Source: Planctomycetota bacterium (lineage in GTDB: Bacteria; Planctomycetota; Planctomycetia; Planctomycetales; Planctomycetaceae). Taken from it: DNA of 40,467 bases. Positions 4,278 through 22,803 of this stretch are shown in pieces (position 1 is the first letter of the stretch; each line of letters starts with the position of its first letter). The notes beneath the pieces are model-generated. The model did not search any database, was not told the origin of the DNA, and was given only the letters and a program-made list of their open reading frames with translations. The translations under genes and the position numbers were made by a program. The stretch spans positions 1 to 40,467 of the forward strand of contig JAHZKX010000050.1 of NCBI GenBank assembly GCA_022600195.1, in the 5' to 3' direction.

Positions 4278-4608
4278 TTAACAACGTGATAAATAATTTT
4301 TGTACCATTATCAAAAAGCTCAGGAAACTCCGTTGTTGTCCAAAGACTTTTGGGCCTTACCCGTTCACGCTAGATTGCCAGTAAAGGGGGCAGGTCTCAA
4401 TTCAACGAGACCAAACACTTTAAATCTCTTCCGAAGGGTTTTTGCTGTCGCTTCACTATAACGGAAGATGATGCGTTTATCTATTTCTTTTATGATGCAT
4501 CGTTCTGGTCACCAGTGATGAATTTTCATCTGCTGCCTGTTTGTGGCGATCGGGTAGAATCTCAGTTCGTAGGTTGGTTGGCCGACGTTGTTTTCGGCTT
4601 TTTTCTAC

Positions 4609-4635
4609 CACGAAAATCACGAAAGGCACGAAATG
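4609..4635 (+). repeat. Three-copy 9-bp tandem repeat CACGAAANN
   Basis: CACGAAAAT, CACGAAAGG and CACGAAATG follow each other without spacing. This A-rich CACGAAARN word is, from general familiarity, a recurrent intergenic element in planctomycetes and related phyla, often mis-annotated as His/Glu-rich small proteins. Its function is unknown. Confidence 0.6.
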
Positions 4636-4788
4636 GTTGTTGTTTCTGTTTTGCAACTTGCTTTTATTTCATTGGTTTCTCTAGCAGATTCCTGCTCGCT
4701 GCGTTCGGGCCGTATTTTATTCGGGCTTTCCCAAAGTGTCGGTGTTTTGACTGTGGTTGATTTTGCTGAAGGGCGTGGGGGTGTCAAG

Positions 4789-4893
4789 CCGAACCGTGTT
4801 CGAAACGCGTCGAACAGTAACCGAAGTCTGCCGAACGTGGGCCGATATGCGTTGAACGCGCGCCGAAGCGTGTCGATACGTTACGAGACATTG
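4789..4893 (+). repeat. Degenerate 21-bp tandem array with 10.5-bp phased GA motif
   Basis: Five 21-bp units can be aligned (starting 4789, 4810, 4831, 4852, 4873). Each has two half-units with the core YCGAA or a one-base variant. The G of the core falls at 4791, 4802, 4812, 4823, 4833, 4844, 4854, 4865, 4875 and 4885, so the spacing alternates 11 and 10 almost without exception. This equals the helical repeat of B-DNA. In one reading frame the units encode a heptad with Asn at position 2 and Arg at position 5, so a coding origin is the alternative. Confidence 0.7.
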
Positions 4894-5165
4894 AGAACCG
4901 ATGGCGATTTTTCAGGTGAAGATTTTCAAAACAGAGGGACTTTTATAGTAGTGAGATCTTCAATGTTCGCGAAAAGCAGTGCGCAAAACACTCATCTCGC
5001 GCGCGACGCTTATAACGCATAAATCAGAGCTTAGGCAGAGCGATGACGGTGTCAAGATACAAATTTGAGAGTGGTTTTTTGAGCCTATTTTTTTGTGATC
5101 GAAAATTCCAGCTGGAGCAAACGGGAGACACCTGCTGACGTGGAACGTTTAACAGTGCTGAAAAT

Positions 5166-11740: not shown

Positions 11741-12202
11741 ATGATTCAAAAAGCTGTCACACTCTCAATGATTGCTGCACTGACATTATTGTCTGCATCA
11801 TTCAGCTCATCCGACGCAGAAGCTGGTTTATTGAACCGCTGCTGCAAACCAGAACGCGTTAAGTGCTGCAAGCCAGTTCGTACACGTTGCTGCAAGCCAG
11901 TACGTACACGTTGCTGCAAGCCAGTTCGTACACGTTGCTGCAAGCCAGCTCGAGTTCGTTGCTGCAAGCCAGTTCGTACAACTTGCTGCAAGCCAGCTCC
12001 AGCTCCTGTATGCTGCAAACCAGCACCAACTTGCTGTGCACCAGCTCCCAAGTGCTGCACTGCCGCACCAAAGTGCTGTGAAGCATCACCTTGCTCAAGC
12101 TGCTCACCAGAAAAACCTGCTGCTGCAGCTCCTAAGAAAAAAGCACAAAACGCACCAGCTCCTCCAAAGAAAGCTCCAGCACCTGCTCCTAAAAAAGCAT
12201 AG
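11741..12202 (+). CDS. Secreted Cys/Pro-rich repeat protein, envelope candidate
   Basis: A 153-residue exported protein. The signal peptide covers about 1-28 (probable cut near AEA-G). The mature part has eleven consecutive Cys-Cys pairs, 24 cysteines in all: six octads of the type RCCKPVRT (about residues 33-80), then shorter CCKPAP, CCAPAPK and CCTAAPK units, a CSSC motif, and a Lys/Pro/Ala-rich tail without cysteine. The DNA of the octads is a near-exact 24-bp tandem repeat. Vicinal Cys pairs in an exported protein suggest disulfide cross-linking or metal binding. Planctomycete cell walls have been described as protein-rich with much cystine and proline, so a wall or surface role is a reasonable inference. 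The ATG follows AGGAG at 11730-11734, and a terminator follows the gene. Confidence 0.8.
   Translation: MIQKAVTLSMIAALTLLSASFSSSDAEAGLLNRCCKPERVKCCKPVRTRCCKPVRTRCCKPVRTRCCKPARVRCCKPVRTTCCKPAPAPVCCKPAPTCCAPAPKCCTAAPKCCEASPCSSCSPEKPAAAAPKKKAQNAPAPPKKAPAPAPKKA
11838..11990 (+). repeat. 24-bp coding tandem repeat
   Basis: About six copies of a 24-bp unit built on TGCTGCAAGCCAGTTCGTAC encode the CCKPxRxR octads of the Cys-rich protein. Copies two to four are nearly identical at DNA level, while the first and fifth are more diverged, which suggests recent slippage or unequal recombination. Confidence 0.85.

Positions 12203-21063: not shown

Positions 21064-22803
<1,740 letters not shown>

Follow-up and report, generated by a model that had tools for sequence, protein, structure and literature searches.

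The array of ten GA cores found in the window (the whole stretch of 40,467 nucleotides analyzed here) forms the center of the ~300-bp core of a dispersed unit, and this unit is genus-specific, with dozens of copies per chromosome in most of the Gimesia lineages examined. Since arrays with differing cores keep a phase of ~10.5 bp, phasing rather than sequence appears to be conserved. The unit is tentatively read as a free-standing convergent-promoter unit with an operator array inside it, a reading drawn from sequence features and given somewhat less than an even chance of being correct. The array itself may be bound cooperatively by a protein that lines up on a single helical face.

Recounting in the window places the GA cores at 4791, 4802, 4812, 4823, 4833, 4844, 4854, 4865, 4875, and 4885, with a further GA at 4887. 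The resulting spacings of 11, 10, 11, 10, 11, 10, 11, 10, and 10 bp are far beyond chance, and the number of cores, spacings, strand and coordinates given in the initial annotation were all borne out. The last core is ACGA, and the other nine are YCGA or YTGA. The GA power at 10.5 bp reaches 10.1 (11 sites, in the 105-bp stretch from 4783), which is the highest of the 40-kb window, with runners-up of 5.8 on the same strand and 6.05 on the opposite strand; when the window was shuffled 60 times (first order), no value exceeded 6.9. The array is not listed by Tandem Repeats Finder at a score of at least 30 and is therefore degenerate, as had been described.

Anatomy and distribution of the unit

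Alignment of 30 copies from the same genome gives a core in which the left end (GGCGTGGGGGTGTCAAG) is followed by the array, then by a conserved middle and the palindrome TCGCGCGCGA, and lastly by a right end closing in GTCAAG (Table 1). The ends of the unit are direct repeats, not terminal inverted repeats, and the putative promoter P_R points in the same direction as P_L, ~260 bp further out (268 bp in the window, where the copy carries a 9-bp insertion beside the P_R -10). Over 32 ortholog pairs from other genomes, the conserved middle shows 8.1% substitution with two gap openings, and the palindrome differs at 8 of 446 sites, a figure obtained from copies picked by a pattern that contains the palindrome. 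The core is gap-free over 309 bp in 21 of these 32 pairs, and gaps are rarer in the core than in the flanks. Among the array-spanning copies of the own genome, none has a gap within the array except the window copy and its closest relative, on contig C5, both of which have three bases missing and cores in shifted columns that are still 10 or 11 bp apart; in L060, a diverged copy, a gap immediately precedes the array. Other small repeats lie to the left of units, with pieces of CCACGAAAA(N)CACGAAA, GGGCGGACACATGGGT, and GGCGGCTAGCGCCG seen at 4609–4633 of the window and in several left flanks, and the left part is thus a mosaic.

Table 1. Features of the unit in the window copy, with coordinates in the window.
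Feature	Position	Strand	Description or basis
Putative rightward promoter region	4523..4560	+	TTTTCATCTG box; -10-like TAGAAT 4555-4560; without clear -35; by eye
Open frame across whole core, 144 codons from TTG	4588..5022	+	Stop-gain tests, pN/pS
Left direct repeat, putative inner leftward promoter P_L	4760..4787	-	TTGAC 4783-4787; -10-like CAAAAT 4760-4765; GCC within spacer; end-motif match, spacer-16 peak
Phased array of ten GA cores, period ~10.5 bp	4789..4887	+	Directly upstream of P_L on the P_L strand
Conserved middle, array to palindrome	4888..4996	.	Copy alignment
Palindrome TCGCGCGCGA, most conserved block	4997..5006	.	Copy alignment
Right direct repeat, putative outer leftward promoter P_R	5028..5055	-	TTGACA 5050-5055; -10-like TAAGCT 5028-5033; spacer 16; family end motif, window site by eye

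Searches of the own genome returned 24 matches with a query of 171 bp around the array, and 33 with a 361-bp copy as query. Contigs C14, C78, and C84 of this genome (G000) end inside units (L028, L056, and L025, respectively), so that the draft assembly is interrupted at these repeats and the number of own-genome copies is a minimum. Matches were present in 14 of the 40 genomes searched (own included), all from one genus; a pattern scan of named genomes, which possibly left out near relatives of the own genome, gave only two loci, in an uncultured Gimesia MAG. Similar arrays, whose absence from the genome and its relatives had been named as evidence against selected phasing, are thus present in both.

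The right-end pattern was found in all 17 Gimesia genomes, with 24–63 strict matches in ten, 11 and 15 in two incomplete genomes (74 and 76% complete), and 1–4 in five. Two of these five low-count genomes, G012 and G009, hold 38 and 24 further matches to a variant ending in ATCAAG. In other genera of the order, 13 of 153 genomes had a match, with at most two in each, similar to reversed-pattern controls. In three other genomes, 58 of 60 loci have a unit free of overlap with any called gene.

There is no support for a structured RNA on either strand. Folding of one copy gave z scores of 0.17 and -0.11, with a two-sided change in 1 of 35 pairs on either strand; the mean z of the end region ranged from -0.35 to 0.64 in six groups, and no Rfam family reached its gathering score. 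Intrinsic DNA bending, which the initial annotation had offered as one cause of the phasing, finds no support in the window copy, with a curvature, computed from wedge values, of 22 degrees vs. 33 ± 16 in shuffles. Group mean curvature elsewhere is somewhat above that of shuffles, at 58 vs. 39 in G012/G009.

Helical phase in arrays with different cores

Across 25 copies of the own genome the period is 10.5 bp, with a GA power of 6.6 vs. 0.80 ± 0.14 in shuffles. The GA peak falls at 10.4 in 16 copies of G013 and at 10.3 in 12 copies of G014, with periods in these two genomes spanning 10.3–10.6 overall, and under one of three motif definitions in G014 a control region had nearly equal power (2.41 vs. 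2.60). In the 14 copies of G003, GA alone peaks at 8.3 and YGA, weakly, at 10.7, with a power of 1.40 at 10.5 vs. 0.84 ± 0.21. The claim that helical phasing is under selection is therefore supported at ~10.3–10.75 bp across species and cores, but weakly in G003.

Two array types coexist in G012 and G009, and the TGTCC/TGGCC core of one is unrelated to the YGA core of the other. In scans from 9.5 to 11.5 bp over both genomes, YGA-type arrays have a period of 10.55 bp, and TG[TGA]CC-type arrays (those with TGTCC/TGGCC cores) one of 10.7–10.75 bp. The sequence after the palindrome, judged by eye, tracks the type, being AAGCA in 15 of 15 YGA-type copies and AGCCA in 13 of 13 TGTCC-type copies. 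A third type is represented by two copies, L235 and L245. The TGTCC-type copy L237 (G009), with successive 12-bp TTTTTGTCCTGG repeats, is an exception to the 10.5-bp phase, and a possible further core type, TTTGTCGCAC in 10–11-bp steps, was seen by eye in L139 (G013) and L199 (G016).

At the locus of L143 in G013, the own genome has a YGA-type copy (L050), G012 a TGTCC-type copy (L244) and G009 a copy of the third type (L245); likewise, the counterpart of L140 of G013 in G016 is another subtype between conserved flanks. Types that differ at shared loci suggest that units exchange their contents there while the helical half-period stays. As copies within a genome are related, the group scores are not independent tests, and the weight rests instead on recurrence across types and species.

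Promoter-like ends and the plus-strand frame

Both ends carry TTGAC on the minus strand, except that in G012 and G009 the right end has TTGAT. With TTGAC/TTGAT as the anchor, the -10 score peaks at a spacer of 16 in all 17 group-end classes tabulated from nine genomes, where the genomes include three pairs of sister species, scoring uses E. coli weights and TTGAC is the anchor itself. An extended end motif occurs at 40 sites in the own genome vs. 2 for reversed-pattern controls, with 37 of the 40 at units and 3 elsewhere; in G003 there are 31 sites vs. 3 for controls, 23 of them at strict units and 8 elsewhere. Most end-motif sites thus lie at units, which rejects a general housekeeping promoter, and P_L and P_R are regarded as putative sigma70-like promoter motifs. 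A survey covering 77 upstream regions yielded two loose hits and was uninformative.

Measured from P_L, YGA-type arrays have a mean phase that stays within 1.6–3.9 bp across the nine genomes (71 of 115 copies with a clear signal), and the window copy is ~2.5 bp off the majority of its own genome. Rightward sites resembling TATCGG(G/A)TAGAAT were found in 9 of 27 own copies, 3 of 20 in G003, 4 of 20 in G013 and 1 of 20 in G014, using a narrow pattern that missed the window copy; one of the G013 sites (L144) looks like chance.

Of 156 copies, 119 have a plus-strand frame that stays open between the left end and the palindrome; minus frames are open in 52 of the 156, and 40 of 131 control windows on the left-hand side, in which genes may lie, have an open frame. 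Because minus frames and controls are also often open, openness alone is weak evidence, and a stop-gain test with a minus-strand control was relied on instead. Ortholog pairs from sister genomes (48 ordered pairs, each pair counted twice, gapped pairs dropped) showed one stop gain in plus-strand open frames vs. 22.5 expected, whereas minus-strand open frames showed 6 vs. 10.5 expected and other frames 0.71–0.85 of expectation. Counting each pair once gave 1 vs. 13.9 expected, over 16 of 32 pairs, with those dropped being without an open frame or having gaps in the core. The deficit fades past the palindrome (1 vs. 1.0, then 4 vs. 7.8), and stop avoidance is weak among own-genome paralogs alone (5 vs. 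7.3 expected). The phase and pN/pS comparisons of own copies used 21 of 30, with nine short or diverged ones left out, and the stop test on own paralogs dropped L038 as well. The pair L145–L211, whose partner belongs to L155, was excluded from the ortholog analyses, and a stretch with N in L172 was left out.

The peptide, on the other hand, shows no amino-acid constraint in pN/pS, and a conserved peptide is rejected on these grounds. For ortholog pairs, pN/pS is 0.78 in the open frame vs. 0.88–0.89 in other frames; for own paralogs it is 0.88 vs. 0.99 ± 0.17 in column shuffles (0.77 to 1.95 over the six frames), and between species it ranges from 0.82 to 1.74. In G013 another frame is apparently used over the same conserved DNA, as judged by reading, and the position at which the frame ends differs among copies. 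Only 56 of 157 copies have a start with a good ribosome-binding site; a start with an RBS-like sequence is present in one member of 15 of 32 pairs, with ATG kept in 13, one CTG and one gap. N-terminal hydropathy over 56 frames is 1.24 vs. 1.08 when shuffled, which is close to what base composition gives and rejects a transertion anchor acting through a hydrophobic N-terminus. For four peptides, Pfam gave only a sub-threshold PsbX match to one (E 0.074), and searches of NCBIfam, PHROGs and PADLOC with four peptides, among them the window frame, had no hits. These findings suggest that translation itself, rather than the peptide, may be under selection. With TGA-bearing cores, a strict alternation of 10 and 11 bp would keep the third frame open.

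In the preferred reading, the array would be a row of half-sites along which a protein binds cooperatively on one helix face, just upstream of the leftward sigma70-type P_L, with P_R pointing the same way further out. A weaker rightward promoter would produce an RNA whose frame crosses P_L, the array and the palindrome in the opposite direction, and the bound protein could act as a switch that sets the balance of leftward and rightward transcription. The frame would then be open only so that translating ribosomes shield the rightward RNA from early, Rho-dependent termination across the opposing promoters. Protein binding, promoter activity, the switch and protection from Rho are all presumed parts of this reading.

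Chromosomal placement, alternative explanations and known systems

In 13 of the 15 genomes that could be tested, the D-isomer dehydrogenase gene that flanks the window copy also has a unit on its 3′ side, as judged by palindrome and ends; G002 and G003 have the locus without a unit, and the contig of G005 ends too early. When 20 units from each of three genomes were compared, 21 of the 60 sampled loci had a flanking gene in common with a unit of another species. There were 31 directed flank matches (51–94% identity), 25 of them on the same side, with reciprocal matches counted twice and the weakest perhaps being paralogs. Strict copies on three closed chromosomes are spaced more evenly than random, with a spacing CV of 0.59 in G003 (n = 39, P = 5e-5, minimum 55 kb), 0.59 in G014 (n = 52, P = 1e-4, minimum 19 kb) and 0.76 in G013 (n = 41, P = 0.04, minimum 27 kb). 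Missed copies would blur such regularity, not create it. Unit orientation shows no bias relative to neighboring genes (counts of 14, 13, 10, and 9 for the four arrangements, from the 46 of 60 loci that a crude codon-score gene caller could classify), which speaks against a terminator or promoter of the neighboring gene.

This placement bears on a chromosome-organizing site, at which the phased array would load a protein filament that anchors or structures the nucleoid, with the promoters or frame opening or tethering the site. The even spacing, the missing orientation bias and the places common to several species all agree with such a role. Loss of close repeats by recombination could, however, also produce even spacing, and the kept-open frame is left unexplained; the role is considered unlikely. 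A further reading, a genus-wide system of chromosomal addressing, is possible but doubtful. Here the dozens of evenly spaced, anciently placed units per chromosome would each offer about ten phased protein sites with cores swappable by exchange between units, together with co-directional promoters and a translated frame whose peptide is indifferent; the array would polymerize a protein on one DNA face, and the chromosome would be marked or given structure by the units acting jointly. The shared places also count against a non-autonomous mobile element spread by transposition, with the array as a transposase or integration-factor site, as do the unit beside one dehydrogenase gene in most genomes, the direct rather than inverted ends and the lack of anything similar in phage and plasmid records with one copy as query. 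Similar copies dispersed within a genome and different subtypes at the same locus in sister species fit an element of this kind, which is nevertheless judged improbable. A clean empty site with target duplication did not turn up at the two loci tried in one sister genome, where one held another subtype and the other gave no clear ortholog.

Another alternative is a multicopy, antisense-controlled small gene resembling a type I toxin-antitoxin locus, in which the plus frame would encode a small peptide and P_L and P_R would drive antisense RNA. The promoter-like sites are antisense to the frame, with P_L aimed at the start region, the frame is kept open, ATG is kept in 13 of the 15 pairs with an RBS-like start, and some copies are annotated, with twelve relatives of one copy's peptide all being hypothetical proteins of Gimesia aquarii. 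Against this, amino acids are unconstrained, N-terminal hydropathy is near composition, frame ends vary among copies and the peptides tried match no family above cut-off, and such a gene is thought quite unlikely. The initial annotation had itself raised a decayed heptad-coding repeat; the phase would then be a by-product of a 21-bp (seven-codon) duplication. Seven codons do span 21 bp, and the array is crossed by an open frame, but the 10/11-bp half-period is not a codon multiple and is common to array types with unrelated cores. The pN/pS of ~0.8–0.9 lies within the shuffle null, and the codon-level test across relatives revealed no synonymous-site conservation of the kind named as contrary to phasing; the explanation, which codon statistics do not support, is scarcely credible.

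Dispersed repeats that carry promoters and binding sites are already known. REP/ERIC/BOX-like repeats are palindromic and fold as RNA or single strand, and small Correia-type elements carry promoters and IHF sites and have inverted ends. In PhoB/OmpR-type operators, a promoter is preceded by a few head-to-tail sites of 10–11 bp that share one helix face, lie at a fixed helical phase and are bound by a response regulator. ParR-parC centromeres have a row of 10–11-bp direct repeats able to load a protein filament, with partition genes beside it, and type I toxin-antitoxin loci, in several copies per genome, have a small frame for a hydrophobic peptide and an antisense promoter whose RNA neutralizes the toxicity. 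The Gimesia unit resembles REP/REPIN, ERIC, BOX, and STAR in its many intergenic copies that are similar within a genome, but it has no stable fold, its places are shared across the genus, and it carries a phased array with an exchangeable core, promoter-like direct-repeat ends and a stop-free frame. With Correia-type elements it shares the combination of promoters and a DNA-bending or binding site (promoter-like sites and a presumed binding array in Gimesia), while differing in its direct ends, shared places and ten-site array. Its 10–11-bp direct repeats on one helix face (weakly so in G003) recall PhoB/OmpR-type operators, but with about ten sites per unit and dozens of units, and form a row as in ParR-parC, but in dozens of chromosomal copies with a promoter-like pair and an open frame. 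Like type I toxin-antitoxin loci it is multicopy and has a small frame with predicted antisense promoter-like sites, although the frame lacks amino-acid or hydropathy constraint and is accompanied by two co-directional antisense sites and a phased array. Sources on these systems cover dispersed intergenic bacterial repeats including REP/REPIN, ERIC, BOX, and STAR (PMC3116915; PMC3532100), a VicR response regulator for PhoB/OmpR-type operators (PMC4168254) and ParR-parC type centromeres (PMC5016525). In the literature excerpts searched, shared places, even spacing, phase-keeping exchangeable cores and a stop-free unconstrained frame were not found together, and for intergenic repeats of Gimesia only rRNA operons turned up.

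If true, each Gimesia chromosome would carry helix-phased binding arrays by the dozen, evenly placed and constant in phase while their letters change, which would amount to a natural experiment in which selection acts on the geometry of DNA and not on its sequence. A frame held open for a freely varying peptide would point to translation as the selected act, and the units would offer a handle on the planctomycete nucleoid.

Two further repeats were observed in the window. A 153-aa frame with a signal-peptide-like start at 11741–12202 contains a 24-bp tandem repeat encoding CCKPVRTR-like units, a cysteine-rich octapeptide repeat. Tandem Repeats Finder also lists a short-period repeat (9/18/21 bp, ATGGGTGGCATGCC) at 22692–22797, which is perhaps Met-Gly-rich coding sequence.
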